A stretch of DNA of 54,183 nucleotides from Acidimicrobiia bacterium (GTDB taxonomy: Bacteria; Acidobacteriota; Vicinamibacteria; Vicinamibacterales; UBA2999), in contig VFZG01000021.1 of the NCBI GenBank assembly GCA_016871275.1, positions 1 to 54,183 of the forward strand, given 5' to 3'. Each line of letters opens with the position of its first letter. Within the stretch, counting starts at the first letter, position 1. Below are positions 21,523-34,054 of the stretch, one piece after another. The position numbers were made by a program, and so were the translations under genes. The notes beneath the pieces were generated by a model. It saw only the letters and a program-made list of their open reading frames with translations, was not told the origin of the DNA and did no database searches.

Positions 21523-22004
21523 CCGTCAAACCCGGAACTCCCGTATCGCGTCTCGACCCCGAGCAGATTCCCCGGCGTGACGCGCTTGGACTGCTGTCGC
21601 TGTGGTCAATGGCCACGGCACTCTTGTTTGCCACGGTGGGCATGCTGCGCCTGCCGAAGGCGGCCGTGCTCGCATCGCCCTCCAAGAAGGTGAAGGTGCA
21701 ACTGCCCGAGACGCTGGCCGACGGCGAGCCGTTCGTGCCGCCCGGCCGCTCAATGGCGGTGTTCCGGCAGGCCGGACAGGTCTACGCCATCTCGACCGTC
21801 TGCACGCACCTCGGCTGCATCGTCAAGGCGTCGGCCGGCGGCTTCGCGTGCCCCTGCCATGGCTCGGAATTCGAAGCCGACGGCACGGTCCGCAAGGGGC
21901 CGGCGCCACGGCCGCTGGATTGGCTCGAGGTCTCGACGTCGGGCGGCGCGCTCGTCGTCAATGAGGGCGCCACGGTGAAGCCCGGCACCAAGGTGAACGT
22001 ATGA
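21519..22004 (+). CDS. Rieske [2Fe-2S] protein of a cytochrome bc-type complex
   Basis: 161 residues from ATG 21519, which overlaps the upstream stop (ATGA). One N-terminal membrane anchor ([20 protein letters not shown]) is followed by the Rieske fold. The two cluster-binding boxes CTHLGC and CPCHGSEF supply both cysteines and both histidines of a high-potential Rieske centre. It accepts one electron from quinol at the outer face of the membrane and passes it to a c-type cytochrome. Directly followed by cytochrome b in the usual qcr/pet order. Confidence 0.92.
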
Positions 22005-23554
22005 GCGACGGTCCTGCACCCGCATCGGCGTTGCAGGAGTTTCGCGACAACCTGCTCGCGGTGCCGGGCCGAATCGTGGCCACGGCGTTTCGTTCGGGTC
22101 GTCCGGTCACCGACCGCGCGCGGTCGTCGTTCGTGTTCGGCAACGTGTTCCTGCACCTGCACGCGGCCCGCACGCATCGCTGGAGCCTGCGCTGGGCCAC
22201 TACGGCCGGACTCGGCATCGCCAGCGTGGCGGCGTTCCTCATCACGCTGGTGACCGGCGTGATGCTGATGTTCTATTACAAGCCCTACACCGACGTCGCC
22301 TACGACTCGATCAAGGACATCCACTTCGTGGTGCCCACCGGCCGCTTCATGCGCAACATCCATCGCTGGGCGGCCAACATCATGGTGGTCACCGTGATTC
22401 TGCACATGGCGCGGGCGTTCTATACGGCCGCCTACCGCGCGCCGCGCGAGTTCAACTGGCTGATTGGACTGGCCCTGCTGGTAACCACGCTCGGGCTGTC
22501 GTTCACGGGCTACTTGCTGCCGTGGGATCAGCTCGCGTACTGGGCCATCACCATCGGCGCCAACATCGCGCAGTCGCCGCGCGAGGTCACGGATGCCATT
22601 GGCATCACCGCGACCTTCGATATCGGTGGACTGCAGCGCATGCTGCTTTTGGGCTCCGACATCGTCGGCGAGGAAGCGCTGATTCGGTTCTACCTGCTGC
22701 ACGTGATGCTGCTGCCACTGGTCATCGCGGCACTGATGGCGGTGCACTTCTGGCGCGTGCGCAAGGACGGCGGCCTGACCAAGCCCGCCGATGTGAACGC
22801 GAGAATGGGACCGGCGCCGTCGGACGTCTATCCGGTGTTCTCGGAAATGCCGGCGAAGACGTACCACCTGGCGGCGGTGGTGAAGGGTCGCTCGCCGGCG
22901 GTGGATGGCGGGCCGGAGCAGACGGTGCCGTCCATGCCGCACCTCTTCTACGCGGAACTGGGCGTGACCATGCTCACGCTGTTCGTCTGCACGGCGCTGG
23001 CGATGGTGTCGGACGCGCCGCTCAAGGAACTGGCCAACCCCATGGTTCCCGAGAACCCGGCCAAGGCACCGTGGTATTTCCTCGGCCTTCAGGAACTGGT
23101 TGCGTTCTCCGCATTCATGGGCGGCATTGGCATTCCCATGATCGTGCTGGTTGGCCTCGGGCTGATTCCGTACCTGGACCGCGAGCGCGAGGGGACCGGC
23201 GACTGGTGTGGCGGGCCGGGCGGCTGGCCGCTGGTGCAGCGGTCGATCGCGTTTGGCTTCAGCGCGTCGCTGATTGTCGAGACCATCGTGATCCGCTACG
23301 GGTGGCTGCGCGAGTGGTTCCCTGACATTCCGCAACTGGTGATCACCGCCGTCAATCCCGGCACTGTGATCACGGCCATCTATGCGGCGTACTCGCTATG
23401 GCTGGTGCGCCGCTACAACTCGACGCGCGCCGGTGCGCTCGGGCTCTTCACGTGTTTCCTTTGCGGGTTCGTGGTGCTGACCGTAATCGGCACCTACTTC
23501 CGCGGACCGAACTGGCAGTTCTACTGGTCGCCATCTGATTGGCCGGGGCACTGA
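22001..23554 (+). CDS. Cytochrome b (b6-type heme spacing, fused N- and C-terminal domains)
   Basis: 517 residues, about eight membrane helices. Heme-ligand histidines are [15 protein letters not shown] (13 residues between) and [16 protein letters not shown] (14 between); the 14-residue spacing is the b6-type. The quinol-site PEWY motif appears as [11 protein letters not shown], as in several non-mitochondrial bc complexes. The N-terminal (b6) and subunit-IV-like halves are fused. No cysteine sits where b6f binds heme ci. It oxidises quinol with the Rieske protein and pumps charge by the Q cycle. ATGA overlap with the Rieske gene. Confidence 0.9.
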
Positions 23555-23555
23555 T

Positions 23556-25205
23556 ATGGCGAAGAACAAGTGGTTGCTGCTCGTTTCCAGTCTTGGAGTG
23601 CTGGTGCTGCTGGTGACGGCGGCGGTTCAGGAGAACCTGCTGCTCGAGTGGCAGCAGATCCAGGCGCAGGCTCGCGCGGAAGACGGACCAATCCCGGTGC
23701 AGTTGCGTCAGGTCGTGAACCCGACCTTGCGCACCGCGGACCGATGTGTGTCGTGCCACGTGGCGATGGGACCCGGTGAGCAGGCGGTGACCGGTCCGAT
23801 GATGGCGGCCCACCGTCCGGTGGTGCACGACCCGGCGGAGTTTGGCTGCACGACCTGTCATGGCGGCCAGGGGCGCGCGACCACGAAGATCGATGCGCAC
23901 GGCGCAGCCGAGTTCTGGCCCGAGCCAATGCTGCCGCCGGCGATGAGCGAGGCCGGGTGTGGGACCTGCCACACGCAGGCCGACGTGCCGCATCGCGCCG
24001 CCTTCAATCTGGCCGCGGCCACGTTTGCCAGGCTCGACTGCGCCTCCTGTCATCGCGTGGACGGGCGCGGCGGCACGCTGCGGCCCGACGCCGGTGGTAT
24101 GGAAGGACCCGACCTGTCGCGGGTCGGCATCGCCGGATGGAACCGCGAGTGGTACGCCGCCCATCTCGCCCAGGCCAAGTCGGCGGTGAGCGGACCATGG
24201 CAGTCGTTCCGGCCGATAGCAGACGACGACCGTGGCCGGGTGGACGCCTTCCTCGCGACGCGCGTCGGCGCGCCGCGGCTGATGGCCGCCAAGAGCGTGT
24301 TCCTGTCGAGCGGCTGTCTCGGCTGTCACAAGGTCAATGGTGTCGGCGGTGACGAAGGACCGGACCTCACGCGCGCCGGTGAGAAAGACCCCGCCCGCCT
24401 CGACTACGCCTCGGTGCCGGGCGGACGGTCGCTCGCAAACTGGTTCCGGGCCCACGTGCGCGCGCCGTCCACGGTGGTGGCCGGATCGCTGATGCCGGCG
24501 ATGCGGATGCCGGACGCCGATGTCGAAGCGCTCACGTTCTTCACGCTGTCGCTCAGGCGTCGTGTGGTGCCAGGCACGTATCTGCCGCGCGATCGCATGC
24601 GGGTGGAGCGATTCGGGGCGCGCGAGTTCGCGGCCGACGGCACGACGCTGTTTGGCGCGTTCTGCGCGGGGTGTCACGGCGCCGAGGGCGAGGGCCGTCG
24701 CGCTCCGGGCATGAAGCCGTTCCCGGCCGTTGCGCATCCGGACTTCATGTCCCTCGCGTCGGACGCGCTGGTGGCGGAGACCATTCGCCGCGGCCGGCCC
24801 GGCACGAGAATGCGCGCATGGGCCGACGGATCGACCGGGCTCACCGACGCCGACGTGACCGCGCTGGTGCAGGAGCTGCGCCGCATGTCGGGTACGCGCG
24901 CGCCGGCCGAGTCGCGCCCGGCGCGGTGGGCGAAGGGTGATCCCGCGGAGGGCGGCCGCTTGTTTGCCGGCGCCTGCAGCGGCTGCCATGGCGCGAAGGG
25001 CGAGGGGAGTGAAGCGCCGGCTCTTGCCAACCCGGTGTTGCTCGAGCACGCCACCGATACGTTTTTCGCCGAGACCATCAAACGCGGCCGGCCTGGCACC
25101 GCCATGCACGGGTTCGCGCAGCCGTCCACCGTGCACCGCGCGCTGTCGGACGCCGAGGTCGAGGCGATCGTTTCATTCATCCGCACGCTGGGAGGCCGAT
25201 CATGA
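23556..25205 (+). CDS. Membrane-anchored heptaheme cytochrome c
   Basis: 549 residues. One N-terminal helix ([19 protein letters not shown]) anchors a periplasmic region with seven CxxCH heme c sites: CVSCH (64), CTTCH (98), CGTCH (135), CASCH (162), CLGCH (254), CAGCH (370) and CSGCH (474). The first four are clustered as in a small multiheme module; the last three are each in a separate cytochrome-c-like domain ending in a conserved helix ([30 protein letters not shown]). It takes the place of cytochrome c1 after cytochrome b, and probably carries electrons between the Rieske protein and the molybdoenzyme encoded next. ATGA overlap with that gene. Confidence 0.9.
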
Positions 25206-28200
25206 GTCAGCAGACACGCCGCGAGTTCCTCGATCGGGTCGCCGCGGCCGGCTTCGTGGGGTTCGCGCTGTCGGCGGAACGCGCCTGGGGGCTGCAGGCG
25301 GTGCCGAACCCGCTGGCGGTGTATCCGAACCGCGAGTGGGAGCGAACCTATCGCAACCTGTGGGCCTACGACTCGACCTACACCTTCACCTGCGCGCCCA
25401 ACGACACGCACAACTGCATTCTCAACGCCTACGTGAAGAACGGCGTGATTGCCCGCATCGGGCCCACGATGAAGTACGGCGAGGCCACGGACCTGTCGGG
25501 CAACCGCACGACGCATCGTTGGGATCCGCGCGTCTGTCAGAAGGGGCTGGCGCTGACGCGGCGCTTCTATGGTGATCGCCGCATCAACCAGACCATGGTG
25601 CGTGCCGGGTTCAAGCGGTGGGTCGATGCCGGCTTCCCGCGCGGCGCCGACGGGCGGCCGCCGCAGGAGTACTTCCAGCGCGCGCGCGACGAATGGGTCC
25701 GTCTGTCGCATGACGAGGCGGCCACCATGGTCGCCAAGTCGCTGAAGAACATTGCCGAAACCTACTCCGGCGAGGCCGGCATGGAGCGGCTGCGCGCGCA
25801 ACACTACGACGAAGAAACGATCAAGGCCACGCAGGGAGCGGGCACGCAGACGCTCAAGCTGCGCGGCGGCATGCCGCTGCTGGGCATCACGCGCGTCTTC
25901 GGCCTCTACCGCATGGCCAACTCATTGGCGTTGCTCGACGCGCACATCCGCAAGGTGTCGCCCGACCAGGCGCTGGGCAGCCGCGGCTTCGACAACTACT
26001 CGTGGCACACCGACCTGCCGCCGGGACACCCGATGGTCACCGGTCAGCAGACCGTGGAGTTCGATCTGTCCGCGGCCGAGCACGCGAAGACGGTGGTGGC
26101 GTGGGGCATGAACTGGATCTGCACCAAGATGCCCGACGGCCACTGGCTGACCGAGGCGCGCCTCAAGGGCACGCGCATCGTGGTCATCGCGTGTGAGTAC
26201 TCGGCGACGTCGAGCAAGGCCGACGACGTGCTGGTGGTGCGTCCGGGCACCACCCCGGCCCTGGCGCTGGGGTTTGCGAACGTCATCTTGCGTGACCGGC
26301 TCTACGACGCCGACTACGTCAAGCGGTGGACCGACCTGCCGTTCCTGGTGCGGACCGACACGCTGAAGAACCTGCGGGCCAGCGACGTGTTCGGCGGCAC
26401 GCAGGCGGCGCTGTCGTCGCTGCAGTCGCTCAAGGCCGGCGAGCGGGAGCCGGCGCCGGCGGCGCAGCAACGGCAGGTCGCGCCAGAAGCGATGCGGGCC
26501 GAATGGGGTGACTACGTGTGGTGGGACCGCGTCACCAACAAGCCCATGGCCATCACGCGCGACCAGGTGGGGGCGTTGTCGCGGGTCGGCGATCCGCTGC
26601 TGGAAGGCTCGGTCGAGGTGACGCTGGCCGACGGCAAGAAGGTGCGCTGCCGCCCGGTGTTCGACCTCGTGAAGGAGTACGCCGCGCACTTCGACCCGAA
26701 GACGGTCGAAGAGATCACCTGGGCCCCGGCCGCCGGTGTGGAGGCGCTGGCACGGCACTTTGCGAAGGAGCCGGGCACGACGCTGTTCGCCGTCGGCATG
26801 GGGCCGAACCAGTTCTTCAACAACGACAACAAAGATCGCGACATCATGCTGCTGGCGGCGCTGACCGGCAACATCGGCAAGGTTGGCGGCAACGTCGGCT
26901 CCTACGCCGGCAACTACCGCGTGGCGCTGTTCAACGGCTCGCCGCAGTACATCAACGAGAACCCGTTCGACCTCGAGCTCGATCCGGCGAAGCCGGCGCG
27001 GCCGCGGCAATACTGGCGGGCCGAGTCGGCGCACTACTACAACCACGAGGACCATCCGCTGCGTGTCGGCAAGAAACTGCTGACCGGCTCGACGCACATG
27101 CCGGCGCCGACCAAGGCGATGTGGTTCGCCAACGCCAACTCGATTCTCGGGAACGTCAAGTGGCACTACAACACGGTGATCAACGTGCTGCCGCGCATCG
27201 AGATGATCGCGGTGCAGGAGTGGTGGTGGACGGGTTCCTGTGAGTGGGCCGACGTGGTGTTCGGCGTCGATTCGTGGTCGGAGCTGAAGCATCCGGACAT
27301 GACGGCGTCGGTGACCAACCCGTTCCTGGTGGTGTTCCCGCGCACGCCGATGAAGCGCATCTTCAACACCGTGGGCGACATCGAGGTGCTGGCGCTGGTC
27401 GGATCGAAGCTGGCCGACCTCACGGGCGATCAGCGCTTCAACGATACGTGGAAATTCGTCCGCGAGGGCCGGACGGATGTGTATCTGCAACGCATCCTCG
27501 ACTACTCCACCAACACCAAGGGCTACAAGTTCGCGGACCTCGAGGCCAAGGCGCGCAACGGTGTGCCGGCCGTGATGCAGTCGCGGACCACGCCGAAAGC
27601 GGTGGGCGCAGATCAGCTGAGGGACTCCAGCCCGTGGTACACGAAGACGGGACGCCTGGAGTTCTATCGCGAGGAAAACGAGTTCATCGAGGCCGGCGAG
27701 AACTTGCCGGTGCATCGCGAGCCGATCGACTCGACGTTCTATGAACCCAACGTGATCGTGGCGCCGAAGCACGAGGCGCTGCGGCCGGCGCAGCCGGAAG
27801 ACTACGGCGTGGCCCGCACCGACCTGTCGAGCGAGACCCGCTGCGGCCGCAACGTGGTGCTGACCTGGGCCGAGACCAAGAAGACCCAGCACCCGCTGGC
27901 CAGCAAGGGCTTCAAGTTCATCTTCCACACGCCCAAGTACCGGCACGGCTCGCATACGACCCCGATTGACACCGACATGAACGCGGTGCTGTTTGGCCCG
28001 TTCGGCGACATCTACCGCCGTGACTCGCGCATGCCGTTCGTCACCGAGGGGTACGTCGACATCAACCCGACCGACGCGCAGTCGCTGGGTGTGCAAGATG
28101 GCGACTACGTGTGGATCGATCCCGATCCGGAAGACCGGCCATTCCGCGGCTGGGAGAAGAACGCCAAGGACATGGAGTTCGCGCGGCTGCTGTGTCGCGC

Positions 28201-28639
28201 GCGCTATTACCCGGGCACACCCAAGGGCGTCACGCGCATGTGGTTCAACATGTATGGCGCCACGCCCGGATCGGTGCAGGGGCGCAAGAGCCGCAAGGAC
28301 GGCCTGGCCAAGAACCCGCGCACGAATTACCAGGCGATGTTCCGCTCCGGCTCGCACCAGTCGGCCACCCGCGGCTGGCTGAAGCCAACGTGGATGACCG
28401 ACTCGCTGGTGCGCAAGGGCCTGTTTGGCCAGGGCATCGGCAAGGGCTTCCTGCCCGACGTCCACTGTCCGACCGGCGCGCCGCGCGAAGCGTTCGTCAA
28501 GATTTCGCGCGCCGAGTCCGGAGGGATTGGCCAGCAGGCACTGTGGCGGCCGGCCGCGCTCGGCATCCGTCCCCGTTACGAGTCCGCCGCAATGAAGCGT
28601 TATCTCGCCGGAGGCTTCTTCTCCGGCCCGAAGGAGTAG
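25202..28639 (+). CDS. Molybdopterin oxidoreductase catalytic subunit (type II DMSO reductase family, NarG/EbdA/SerA-like)
   Basis: 1145 residues. [16 protein letters not shown] is a twin-arginine signal, so it folds in the cytoplasm and acts in the periplasm. The FS0 iron-sulfur region has C64, C72 and C112 ([11 protein letters not shown], then WDPRVCQKG); the position of the second usual cysteine is Asn68, with Asp69 and His70 nearby. The likely molybdenum ligand is Asp271 in [13 protein letters not shown], aligned with the NarG DLPP aspartate, which defines type II enzymes. Members reduce nitrate, selenate or (per)chlorate, or oxidise dimethyl sulfide, nitrite or hydrocarbons; sequence reading alone does not choose. 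Downstream beta, gamma and chaperone genes fit the family. Confidence 0.88.
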
Positions 28640-28642
28640 GTC

Positions 28643-29770
<1,128 letters not shown>

Positions 29771-29825
29771 GACAGGCGTCACGAGTGGCAGGGGTCCCAT
29801 TGTGCCAGGGTGCAGTGAGGTTGGT

Positions 29826-30674
29826 ATGCGATACGCGCTGATGACACTGATTGCGGTTTCGCTGGCGGGGTGCACGCGGGCGCCAGCGCCGGTGGCGGAC
29901 GTGGTGGCAGTGGTGTCGGCGTCGCTGCCGTCGGATCCTGCTGACGCGGCGTGGAACGCCGCGCCCGAGCACGTCGCGAAACTGCTGTTGCAGGATCTTG
30001 TCGAGCCCAGGCTGCAGGCCGTGTCAACGCCCGATGTGCGGGTGCGTGCGTTCACCGCCGGGCAGGAGATCGCGCTGCGTCTCGAATGGCCCGATGCGAC
30101 CATCAACGACCTGCCGGCAGCGGGTCGGTTCAACGATGCGTGTGCCGTGCAGGTGCCACTGAAGCCGGCCGCGGCCGTGCCCGACCCGCAAATGGGCATG
30201 GCCGGCAATGGCGTTGCGATCTCGTTCTGGCGTGCCGACTGGCAGGCCACCGTCAAGGGTCGCGGCGACACCATCCGCGAGATCTATCCCAACGCGCTGA
30301 TCGATCACTATCCGTTCGACGCGCCCTCGCTGGAAAAAGGGTCCGCGGCTCAGCAGAAGATGGCCACCGAATATGCGCCCGCCGAAGGGGCCGGTAACCG
30401 TCGCGGTGGTGCGCGGACGACGGCCGTGGAGGACCTGATTGCGGAAGGGCCGGGAACCCTGCATCCGGCGCCGGCCGCGATATCGCGTGGCTCCGGCGTG
30501 CGAACACCGACCGGATGGGCGGTGGTCATCACTCGGCCACTGCCCGACGGCCTGTCGCCGACGTCGCCGTCACAGATCGCCTTTGCGGTGTGGGAAGGCA
30601 GCAAGCAGGAATCCGGCGCGCGCAAGATGCGCACGGGCTGGATTCCCATTTCCATTCGAGAGGATCAGCCATGA
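29826..30674 (+). CDS. Heme-b gamma subunit, ethylbenzene dehydrogenase-like, lipoprotein
   Basis: 282 residues from ATG 29826 with GAGG upstream. MRYALMTLIAVSLAGC is a lipoprotein signal (Cys16). The mature part resembles the EB_dh/cytochrome c-552-like heme-binding domain: DPADAAWNAAPEH near the start, RAFTAGQEIALRLEWPDAT, MAGNGVAISFWRADWQATVK with candidate Met and Lys axial ligands, and the closing strands GWAVVITRPLPD and IAFAVWEGSKQE. In EbdC, SerC and DdhC this subunit exchanges electrons with periplasmic cytochromes and is soluble; lipidation here would tether the enzyme to a membrane. A 55-base gap separates it from the beta subunit. Confidence 0.8.
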   Translation: MRYALMTLIAVSLAGCTRAPAPVADVVAVVSASLPSDPADAAWNAAPEHVAKLLLQDLVEPRLQAVSTPDVRVRAFTAGQEIALRLEWPDATINDLPAAGRFNDACAVQVPLKPAAAVPDPQMGMAGNGVAISFWRADWQATVKGRGDTIREIYPNALIDHYPFDAPSLEKGSAAQQKMATEYAPAEGAGNRRGGARTTAVEDLIAEGPGTLHPAPAAISRGSGVRTPTGWAVVITRPLPDGLSPTSPSQIAFAVWEGSKQESGARKMRTGWIPISIREDQP

Positions 30675-31324
30675 CCGCCGTCGCCCTGGACCCACGGGTC
30701 ACGACGCTGCTGCAGGAGGCGGCCGAATGGCGCCTGCTCAGCCTGCTGTTTGCCTGCCCGTCTGAGGAGTGGCGCGCCGACATCGATCGCCTCGCCGGCG
30801 ATGTGCATGCCGAGCCGCTGACAGCTGCCGCCCAGCACGCACGTGAGCAGGCCTCCGAAGGCGTGTATCACTCGGTGTTCGGCCCGGGCGGTCCGGCACC
30901 GCCACGCGAGGCCAGCTACCACGTCTCGGTCGAGCTTGGCACGCTGCTGGCGGCGATTGCCGGCGACTATGCGGCGTTTGCCTATCAACCGGTCACCAGC
31001 GAACCGGTGGATCACATCGCCGTCGAAACCGGCTTCATCGCCTACCTGCGTTTCAAGGAGGCGTATGCGCTCGCGTCGGGCAACGACGAAGCCGCCGCCA
31101 TCGCCGGCCGCACCGCCGCGCGCTTCATGACCGATCACATCGCCGTCGTGGCTCATCCGTTGGCGGAGTTGCTGGCCAACTCCGGCGTCGAATACCTGGC
31201 GCAGGCCTCCGCCGCGGCCGCCCAGCGTTCCGGGCCCAAGCCGCGCGTCCGCCAGTTGCCCGTGATCCAGCAGAACGCCCTCGACGAAGGCGCTGAAGGA
31301 GAGTTTGCATGCGGCCCGTCATGA
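30671..31324 (+). CDS. TorD/DmsD-family molybdoenzyme chaperone
   Basis: 217 residues. The start is fixed by an ATGA overlap with the gamma-subunit gene. Helical protein with EWRLLSLLFACPSEEW near residue 18, VYHSVFGPGGPAPPREASYH (Y-x2-hF-G-x3-PxPRExSYH, the segment that binds the partner) and later helices AYLRFKEAYALASG and TARFMTDHIAVVAHPLA. Such dedicated chaperones (DdhD, EbdD, NarJ-like) guard the Tat signal of the catalytic subunit until the cofactor is inserted. Overlaps the next gene by 16 bases. Confidence 0.85.
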   Translation: MTAVALDPRVTTLLQEAAEWRLLSLLFACPSEEWRADIDRLAGDVHAEPLTAAAQHAREQASEGVYHSVFGPGGPAPPREASYHVSVELGTLLAAIAGDYAAFAYQPVTSEPVDHIAVETGFIAYLRFKEAYALASGNDEAAAIAGRTAARFMTDHIAVVAHPLAELLANSGVEYLAQASAAAAQRSGPKPRVRQLPVIQQNALDEGAEGEFACGPS

Positions 31325-31917
31325 TCGTGGTGGGCGGCCATAGCCGCAGCGTCGGCAAGACGACGACCATTGAAGAGATCCTTGGCGACCGCACGGACGA
31401 GCGCTGGGCCGCCGTCAAAGTGTCGTCACACCGGCACGCGTTGCCGGACGTGGACCGTCCGCTCATTGAGCCCGACCGGCTTGCCGACCCGCGCACGCAA
31501 ACCGGGCGCTACCTGCTCGCCGGCGCCGAGCGCGCCTTTCTGTGTCGCACGCCGGCCGCCCAGTTGACGGCCACCGCGGCGTTCATCCGCGAGTTACAAG
31601 ACGACGGTTGCAACGTCATTGTCGAGTCGAATCGCATCATCGACTTCCTCCGGCCCGACCTGGTGCTGTTCACCGTGGCGCCGCGCATCGAGGACTGGAA
31701 GGCATCCTCTGGCGTGGCGCTGGCGCGCACCGACGCGTTCGTGGTTCGTACTGACGACGAGGCCGAAGCCCGGGAGGCGGTCCGCGCGCTGGCGGCCAAG
31801 GGCAGGACGGCCTTCGCTCCTGGCCACGGCGATGAGACGTTGCGGATGCTCGCCTGGCTGCAGGTCCGGCTTCCGGCGACGAGTGAGGAGTGGCGGCAAC
31901 ATGTGTCGATCCATTAG
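31309..31917 (+). CDS. P-loop NTPase, MobB-like
   Basis: 202 residues. Walker A GGHSRSVGKTT near residue 9, then VKVSSHRHALPDVDRPLIEP and a G-x-YLLAGAERAFLCR segment, arranged like MobB (KHxHH-x-FDID-KPGKDSYRHREAGA), the GTP-binding helper of molybdopterin guanine dinucleotide synthesis. Later VIVESNRIIDFLRPDLVLF gives a Walker-B-like strand. Next to the molybdoenzyme chaperone, cofactor assembly or insertion is the likely role. AAGGAG about six bases upstream supports ATG 31309; ATG 31321 would give the ATGA overlap common in this operon. Function is inferred from fold and context. Confidence 0.6.
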   Translation: MRPVMIVVGGHSRSVGKTTTIEEILGDRTDERWAAVKVSSHRHALPDVDRPLIEPDRLADPRTQTGRYLLAGAERAFLCRTPAAQLTATAAFIRELQDDGCNVIVESNRIIDFLRPDLVLFTVAPRIEDWKASSGVALARTDAFVVRTDDEAEAREAVRALAAKGRTAFAPGHGDETLRMLAWLQVRLPATSEEWRQHVSIH

Positions 31918-33346
31918 CGCCGGGACGTTTGTGTTGCTGCTGGCAGCGACCGCGCACGCGCAGACGGCAGCGCCCGCGGCCAAACCGTCCACCTCGGCGT
32001 GGCGCGCCACGGCGACCAATCTGACACGCGTCGAGTCGTGGAGTTTTTTCGAGCCGCCGCCAACCGGCGGCAATCCGGATTCGAACTTCGTCGGCAACCG
32101 GTTGCGGGTCGGCCTGTCGAGAAGCTGGCCGCGAGTGGACGTTGCCGGCGCGCTGCAGTACGTGCAGTTCGGCGGTCTACCGGACGCGGCGGTAGGGCCG
32201 GGTTTTCTCGGCACCGGTGCGCTCTATTACTTTCACAGCCAGCGCACGACCAGCCGCGGCGTGTTCGTGCCGGCGATCAACGTGCGGCTGAAGCTGCCGC
32301 GCGGCGTGACCATTCTTGGCGGGCGGTTTGGCTACACATCCGGTGCCGAAGCGCCCTCAGGGCAGCCGCGGATTGAAGCGGTCAAGCGTTCACGCATGGA
32401 CTCGCGGCTGATCGGCGATTTCGAGTGGTCGCTGTACCAGCGGGCGTTCGACGGTGTCCGCGCCGACGTCGATCGCAAGACGTGGCACGCCTCGGCGGCG
32501 TACCTGCGGCCCACGCAGGGCGGCTTCGAGGACAGCGCCGGCAGAACCCTCGGCCCGGTAGACCTTGGCGCCTTCACCTTCACCATGCGCCCGGGGCTGG
32601 CGTTGCCGTCGACCGACGTGACGGCGTTCGCGTATACCTACAGCGACGATCGCTTCGTCACCGCCCGTCCGGACAACACCGGCCTGTCGGCCGCGCGCGC
32701 CCGCGTCACGGTCGCCACGCTGGGCGCGTCGGCGATTGGCGCCAGGCGCGTTGGGACGGTTGACCTTGACTGGCTCGGCTGGTATGCGGAGCAGACTGGA
32801 TCGTGGTACGGCCAGGACCATCGCGCGCGATCACTCGCGCTGGAAGGCGGCGTGCAATGGCCCAGAGGTTGGCAGCCGTGGATCCGCGGCGGCTACCTGC
32901 ACGCCTCGGGAGATGACAATCCGCGCGACGCTCGTCACGGAACCTTCTTCGCGACGATACCCACCGTTCGCCGCTACTCGTTCACGACCATCTACGCGCC
33001 CATGAACCTGCGCGACGCCTTCGTGGAGTGCATCGTCCGCCCCTCCTCACGCGTGCGCGGCCGCATGGATGTCCGATGGCTGTCGTTGGCCGAGGGCGCG
33101 GATCGCTGGTACGCGGGGAGTGGAGCCACGCGCGGCGCGGGCAGCTTCTTCGGCTACGCTGGCCGCGCATCGGGTGGTCACACCGATCTCGGCACGGTGA
33201 TCGAAGGCGCGCTCGACGTCACGGTGGCGCGTCATCTATCGATCAACGGCTTCATTGGCGGCATGCACGGCGGGCGAGTGGTCGCGAACCTGTTCCGCGG
33301 CGAGTGGGCGCGCTTTGCCTATCTGGAGAGCGTGATCCAGTTCTGA
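31901..33346 (+). CDS. Outer-membrane porin, alginate-export family
   Basis: 481 residues from ATG 31901, overlapping the P-loop gene by 17 bases. A signal peptide (AGTFVLLLAATAHAQ) precedes a long beta-barrel with many amphipathic strands (LRVGLSRSWPRVDVAGALQY, YYFHSQRTTSRGVFVPAINV) and the alternating aromatic/basic style of AlgE-like monomeric barrels, ending in ARFAYLESVIQF with a terminal Phe. As last gene of the redox operon it may let the substrate or product of the periplasmic molybdoenzyme cross the outer membrane. Electron conduits of the MtrAB type use a different, larger porin, so I favour solute passage. Confidence 0.72.
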   Translation: MCRSISAGTFVLLLAATAHAQTAAPAAKPSTSAWRATATNLTRVESWSFFEPPPTGGNPDSNFVGNRLRVGLSRSWPRVDVAGALQYVQFGGLPDAAVGPGFLGTGALYYFHSQRTTSRGVFVPAINVRLKLPRGVTILGGRFGYTSGAEAPSGQPRIEAVKRSRMDSRLIGDFEWSLYQRAFDGVRADVDRKTWHASAAYLRPTQGGFEDSAGRTLGPVDLGAFTFTMRPGLALPSTDVTAFAYTYSDDRFVTARPDNTGLSAARARVTVATLGASAIGARRVGTVDLDWLGWYAEQTGSWYGQDHRARSLALEGGVQWPRGWQPWIRGGYLHASGDDNPRDARHGTFFATIPTVRRYSFTTIYAPMNLRDAFVECIVRPSSRVRGRMDVRWLSLAEGADRWYAGSGATRGAGSFFGYAGRASGGHTDLGTVIEGALDVTVARHLSINGFIGGMHGGRVVANLFRGEWARFAYLESVIQF

Positions 33347-33574: not shown

Positions 33575-34054
33575 TCAGTGCTTGGTGAAGACGGAGCGCT
33601 TTCCATCCTTCGTGAACGCAATCACGTTGAACGGCTCTTTGCGACCGCCCTGTTCCATGCCGGGCGATCCGATCGGCATGCCGGGCACTGCGATTCCGGC
33701 AATGGCCGGCTTCTCCTTCAACATCTTCTGGATGGCCGAGGCCGGCACGTGCCCCTCCACGACGTAGCCGCCAATCTTGGCGGTGTGGCAGGAGCTGAGA
33801 TCGCTGGTGACGCCGGCCTGTGTCGCAATGGCGGCGAGGTTGGCGTTGGACACGTCGTTGGCTTCCACCTGGAAGCCGTTCGCCTGGAGGTGCGTAATCC
33901 AGGCGCCGCAGCACCCTCACGTGGGCGACTTGTAGACGATGACGGTGTTGGCGCTGGCCTTGGTCGCCGCGGGCTTCTGCTGCTCGGCGGCAGCGAACCC
34001 GAGACCTCCCAGCACCAGCGCCGCTACGGCAATGGCAAGGGCTGACTTCTGCAT
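33575..34054 (-). CDS. DUF411 metal-binding protein with in-frame TGA at a conserved Cys (selenoprotein candidate)
   Basis: One frame of 159 codons with a signal (SALAIAVAALVLGGLGFAAA) and the DUF411 body: TVIVYKSPT, then TGA at 33919-33917, then GCCGAWITHLQANGFQV, SSCHTAKIGGYVVEGHVP and GIAVPGMPIGSPGM. DUF411 proteins carry CGCC here and are linked to copper handling; the TGA replaces exactly its first cysteine. No other stop or frameshift occurs. An eight-base inverted repeat (33898-33905 with 33881-33888) with a nine-base loop begins 11 bases after the TGA, in the region a bacterial SECIS would occupy, but its loop lacks the G usual in its first two positions. TACGAT at 34066-34061 implies a leaderless start. 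Alternative: a single nonsense mutation. Confidence 0.6.

Follow-up and report, generated by a model that had tools for sequence, protein, structure and literature searches.

The closest described relatives of the gene reported here are CopG of Pseudomonas aeruginosa (PDB 6WIS and 6WJE; PF04214) and CutG. According to the accessible part of PMC7558416, CopG binds a tetranuclear copper cluster through a CxCC motif and two methionines, and may oxidise Cu(I). The CutG motifs C40xC42C43 and M120x6M127 are dispensable for CutO activity in Rhodobacter capsulatus, as reported in the available text of PMC8456105. A second point of comparison is Table 1 of PMC13188914 (May 2026), which in its accessible form covers 119 prokaryotic selenoprotein families. 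Its MerT-like protein, E1-E2 ATPase, SO_0444 Cu/Zn transporter and CopZ-type 2Fe-2S selenoproteins resemble the protein described below in that selenocysteine (Sec) stands in for a conserved metal or redox cysteine, Cys homologues exist elsewhere, and Sec machinery and a metal resistance setting are found. Unlike these proteins, ours carries a U-x-C-C copper-cluster motif, which is new to that table, and DUF411/PF04214 has no entry in it. An earlier note made from the DNA alone knew of no established DUF411 selenoprotein, and our search of the main texts of openly accessible journal papers likewise found none joining a selenoprotein with DUF411 or COG3019, broader queries giving nothing pertinent either.

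The window (the whole 54,183-nucleotide stretch of DNA that was analysed, from a genome of the class Vicinamibacteria, hereafter ‘the class’) carries on its reverse strand a DUF411 coding sequence (33575..34054) of 159 residues with a putative Sec46 and a terminal TGA stop. A single internal TGA, in the context VIVYKSPT-U-GCCGAW, occupies codon 46 (33917..33919, reverse strand), where the CxCC metal motif begins, and 113 codons follow it up to the terminal TGA. Residues 46-49 (33908..33919, reverse strand) would therefore read U-G-C-C, equivalent to the CxCC copper-cluster motif whose function is given for CopG in the accessible part of PMC7558416. Further along, a GMPxGSPGM segment with Met126 and Met133 (33656..33679, reverse strand) matches the M-x6-M copper motif of CutG and CopG in the available text of PMC8456105. 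Residues 1-23 (33986..34054, reverse strand) form a probable signal peptide, judged by eye from the sequence. A promoter and terminator scan returned nothing on the strand of the DUF411 gene.

Homology to CopG extends along residues 38-158. The window protein matches the Pfam DUF411 model (PF04214) with 93.4 bits against a cut-off of 27, while no NCBIfam model matches it, and a phmmer comparison with P. aeruginosa CopG (PDB 6WIS) yields 5.7e-33 with the CGCC motif aligned. An AlphaFold2 model built from 19 sequences has a mean pLDDT of 82.6 and a pTM of 0.73, with low pLDDT over residues 1-31. The five best Foldseek hits to this model are CopG chains (1e-13 to 2e-15; E 1.7e-15 and TM 0.87 by target for 6WIS), followed by weaker matches to thioredoxin-like folds, indicating the same predicted fold as CopG. 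Both U46-G-C48-C49 and M126-x6-M133 are retained in the window protein, and the two methionines are invariant across the 19 sequences. The frame intact on both sides of a single TGA, which takes the place of the first CGCC cysteine as described in the earlier note, is borne out by the translation and the DUF411 match. Cys48, Cys49 and M-x6-M are kept in the alignment, and the note had called the later family motifs preserved. The window gene differs from copG and cutG in having UGA for the first Cys of CxCC.

An in-frame TGA could simply be a nonsense mutation, in which case the gene would be a recent pseudogene or yield only a short peptide, and a one-step change from TGC to TGA would look the same in a single genome. 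The distribution of the codon among relatives speaks against this reading. A homology search placed a DUF411 protein in 91 of 193 class genomes, at 94 places, 42 of which have one internal TGA; 90 of the 94 places were retrieved, and the other four are without an internal stop according to the search. At the first Cys of CGCC, the 90 class loci carry TGA in 42 cases, TGC in 47 and TGT in one. The absence of TAA and TAG from this site is weak evidence on its own, because TGA is the only one-step nonsense change from a Cys codon. The genus to which the window genome belongs has eight further members; seven of them possess the gene, with TGA in six and Cys in the remaining one (G110). The earlier note had named uniform TGC among close relatives as a pattern that would count against selenocysteine, and the genus does not display it. 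By this comparison of loci, TGA at the first Cys exceeds chance and a private nonsense mutation is contradicted.

The reading frame beyond the TGA also appears to be maintained. Sec genes have a median of 112 codons 3′ of the TGA, and dN/dS values downstream of it range from 0.18 to 0.35 for six equal-length pairs that include the window gene and from 0.04 to 0.23 for six other homologue pairs. These ratios indicate that purifying selection acts on the portion 3′ of the TGA. Given intact frames, dN/dS of 0.04-0.35, invariant motifs elsewhere in the protein and the recurrence of this TGA in 42 of 90 class loci as well as across many phyla, we regard the nonsense explanation as extremely improbable. 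A one-base sequencing or assembly error is made very unlikely by the occurrence of the same TGA in 42 class genomes. Independent assemblies from several phyla, including those of Helicobacter and Parendozoicomonas isolates, have TGA at the same codon, leaving such an error with a practically negligible probability.

Evidence for the breadth of this codon assignment comes from the pattern PTUGCCxxW, which was run over named genome contigs and gave at least 117 matches in at least 116 stretches. Using a profile built here and a threshold of >40 bits, at least 94 of the matches listed were assigned to DUF411 (the 23 others being chance matches), of which at least 74 are new. Among the 93 DUF411 loci in the matches listed, 20 repeat class loci and 73 are others. 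These 73 span nine named phyla by their NCBI labels: Chloroflexota (24), Pseudomonadota (16), Gemmatimonadota (11), Myxococcota (8, with record titles giving Deltaproteobacteria), Rokuibacteriota (5), Acidobacteriota (2), Campylobacterota (2), Tectimicrobiota (1) and Methylomirabilota (1), with three loci carrying no phylum label; many of these records come from metagenome bins, and individual placements could be in error. Two loci with a Vicinamibacterales or Vicinamibacteria label (L147 and L148) agree at the site with class loci (L069 and L101, respectively), in keeping with the class of the window genome. The isolates with the TGA form among the matches listed include Helicobacter brantae, H. 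cholecystus and Parendozoicomonas callyspongiae. A neighbouring gene in H. cholecystus that had been considered as a selD candidate is purM.

Several individual loci and genomes have unusual copy numbers or motifs. One locus (L208) holds two Sec-DUF411 copies, scoring 50 and 168 bits, and two genomes (G215 and G225) have two Sec-DUF411 loci each. Another genome (G095) has three Cys-type DUF411 copies (L057, L063 and L074) and SelB is absent from it. The Sec homologue at 3060-3444 of L078 has U-P-C-C rather than U-G-C-C, and is adjoined by a CusA-type gene. DUF411 relatives are also found on plasmids (3456 records), and the 12 that were listed are intact DUF411 proteins by annotation.

Exchange between Sec and Cys has occurred repeatedly. 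A tree of 162 proteins, computed with the Sec/Cys column masked, requires 13 label changes, at least five of which are forced by well-supported branches, compared with an average of 42 for 500 label shuffles; this is a quick tree in which many forks lack resolution. Three Cys members (L015, L019 and L020) are nested within the Sec clade of the window gene, and L017 is its sister. The TGA/Cys exchange that the earlier note had proposed looking for among homologues therefore recurs on the tree.

If UGA is decoded as Sec, the corresponding machinery should be encoded in the same genomes. The window genome has SelA (535 bits), SelB (above cut-off), a Sec-type SelD whose UxxK site likewise carries a TGA (362 bits; L048 1501-2427, G000:C76) and a tRNA-Sec (63.8 bits) that ARAGORN calls as tRNA-SeC(tca), i.e. 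with a UCA anticodon. All four components whose presence had been proposed as a check are thus found. Outside the class, among the matches listed, SelB scores above cut-off in 62 of 71 Sec-DUF411 genomes (44/50 plus 18/21), as opposed to 6 of 23 genomes that gave chance matches (P 7e-8); the two sets differ in phyla, which makes this a rough control. Across the whole class the difference is not significant (33/42 Sec versus 33/49 Cys genomes; P 0.25), and among class genomes that are >=90% complete and in <=250 contigs it amounts to 20/20 Sec versus 19/27 Cys (P 0.014, hand count).

Eighteen Sec genomes are without SelB, and 11 of these have a tRNA-Sec above cut-off, two of them weakly. Among 14 control genomes, the tRNA-Sec model RF01852 exceeds its cut-off in five and SelB in two, and the weaker matches (51.8 bits in G117 and 47.7 bits in G175) are therefore poor evidence; the scores in 9 of the 11 genomes are >=61 bits. 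In total, SelB or tRNA-Sec is present in 106 of 113 Sec genomes.

The remaining seven, with neither SelB nor tRNA-Sec above cut-off, would be accommodated if UGA were read as Trp, Cys or Gly, either through a general code change or by near-cognate readthrough, and readthrough without Sec would equally keep the frame under selection. However, TGA is the terminal stop of the window gene and of 46 other Sec genes (47 of the 114 whose stop lies within the locus), and so TGA still means stop. In addition, a strong enrichment of SelB accompanies the TGA form across genomes, and the exchange partner within the class is always Cys. We therefore consider decoding as another residue highly improbable, and a Sec-containing CopG very likely on these comparative data. 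As for the alternative between selenocysteine and nonsense that had been posed at the outset, the results favor selenocysteine, and of the contrary findings named beforehand, neither a genome devoid of selB and selC nor uniform TGC among close relatives was obtained.

Bacterial SECIS elements are short hairpins within about 16-37 nucleotides of the UGA, the canonical case being that of E. coli fdhF. A SECIS-like hairpin with eight pairs and a 9-nucleotide loop is located at 33881..33905 on the reverse strand, beginning 11 nucleotides 3′ of the UGA, and its loop (UUACGCACC) is atypical in having no G at the first two positions. Stem, loop, spacer and the missing early G all agree with the earlier description. 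The stability of the fold is mildly unusual (z -1.68 relative to dinucleotide shuffles, with 12 of 200 shuffles equally stable). Synonymous recoding of the window gene retains all eight pairs in 8% of trials (about 8-9% for the window-clade stem), so that much of this stem is accounted for by the encoded protein sequence by itself.

Pooled folding energies of the 45 nucleotides after the UGA do not differ between 116 Sec and 48 Cys sequences (z -0.69 versus -0.36, P 0.18), and hairpins were therefore examined lineage by lineage. Because the hairpins were first read off the Sec genes and then checked on relatives of these, P values overstate the case for the following contrasts: 15 of the 16 Sec members of the window clade form 7-8 of the 8 stem pairs, versus <=6 in 48 Cys loci; a second class clade has 6/6 pairs with a loop starting GGU in 16/16 Sec members and in 1/48 Cys loci; and a third set of 59 other Sec sequences has 7/7 pairs in 43 versus 0/48 Cys, or >=6 pairs in 52/59 versus 15/48. 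Of the eight stem pairs, 3, 4 and 4 are present in the Cys members nested in the window clade (L015, L019 and L020, respectively) and 6 in the sister L017, and the Sec member L014 has three stem pairs and a different pairing register. In the third set, the loop codon specifies Gly or Val in 41/59 Sec sequences versus 1/48 Cys sequences, which mostly have Glu, Asp or Lys, suggesting that a requirement of the RNA may have altered the protein at this codon.

Codon identity is 0.86 in the first 18 codons versus 0.53-0.71 further on, and one Cys clade likewise shows raised identity near the site (0.75). An Rfam search yielded no SECIS match, and no common hairpin was found among the 25 sequences of a Chloroflexota clade. 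Short hairpins near the UGA, with GGU-type loops in several Sec-DUF411 lineages, are reminiscent of the E. coli fdhF element; unlike that element, the early loop G is absent from 8 of the 15 window-clade members with this stem (present in 7), and the Chloroflexota are without a shared hairpin. Overall, a SECIS element is likely to follow the UGA in these genes, with candidate hairpins that are lineage-specific and mostly absent from Cys homologues.

The window DUF411 gene stands alone, with a gene for an alginate-export-type outer membrane protein on one side and one for a divergent OMP-type protein on the other, and unlike some of its counterparts it has no copper gene adjoining in the retrieved flank. 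The adjoining forward-strand run (22001-33346) encodes cytochrome b, cytochrome c, a type II DMSO-reductase-family molybdoenzyme, an Fe-S subunit, an EB_dh-type subunit, a NarJ-like chaperone and the alginate-export-type outer membrane protein, and possibly specifies a respiratory oxidoreductase. The neighbour clusters met most often among class loci, NIPSNAP, NUDIX and acyltransferase among them, indicate no common function.

The lack of copper genes in the retrieved flanks of the window gene and of 41 of 42 Sec class loci, together with the thioredoxin-like fold, would fit a protein that uses Sec for thiol-selenol redox chemistry on a non-copper substrate, such that the copper link of CopG would not carry over. 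Within the class, one of the 42 Sec loci and five of the 48 Cys loci have copper genes nearby. Elsewhere, Sec lineages adjoin copA, cus and csoR-type genes, as evident by matches to Cu-ATPase (TIGR01511), CusA (TIGR00914), CusF and CsoR-type proteins near Sec loci. Such genes lie near 16 of 73 non-class Sec loci among the matches listed versus 0 of 23 control loci, where the queries were six proteins from six Sec loci (10/67 without those loci) and flank lengths differed. Given this association and the retention of the CxCC and M-x6-M ligands, we consider the non-copper alternative unlikely.

The reading that we judge highly probable from these sequence comparisons is that the product of the gene is a CopG-type (DUF411) copper protein of the periplasm, with Sec in place of the first Cys of CxCC, where it would serve as a copper ligand. 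SelB and Sec-tRNA(UCA) would decode UGA46 as Sec, aided by the short hairpin just downstream, and the terminal UGA, lacking such a hairpin context, would stop translation. The exported protein with its thioredoxin-like fold would bind a copper cluster via U-x-C-C and M-x6-M with a selenolate ligand, and may buffer, oxidise or hand on periplasmic copper. Copper binding through selenium would be the natural reading, and we infer Sec insertion at the UGA, hairpin function and the cellular role in the same way. A more specific proposal, to which we assign even chances, is that the periplasmic site is a mixed S/Se-bridged tetranuclear copper site and that Cys and Sec have been switched many times in bacteria of several phyla, which would tie selenium supply to copper defence.

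Sec-CopG would be a widespread selenoprotein that has apparently gone unreported. Annotation pipelines will truncate its genes at the UGA or miss them. If Sec binds copper, the site would be a biological copper-selenolate cluster, of which we know of no description. With Sec-CopG, the selenoproteins gain a family found widely among the genomes examined, and the use of selenium is connected with the handling of copper. The repeated exchange of Cys and Sec in a small copper protein, with Cys and Sec relatives that can be compared, constitutes a natural experiment on the contribution of selenium to a copper site.
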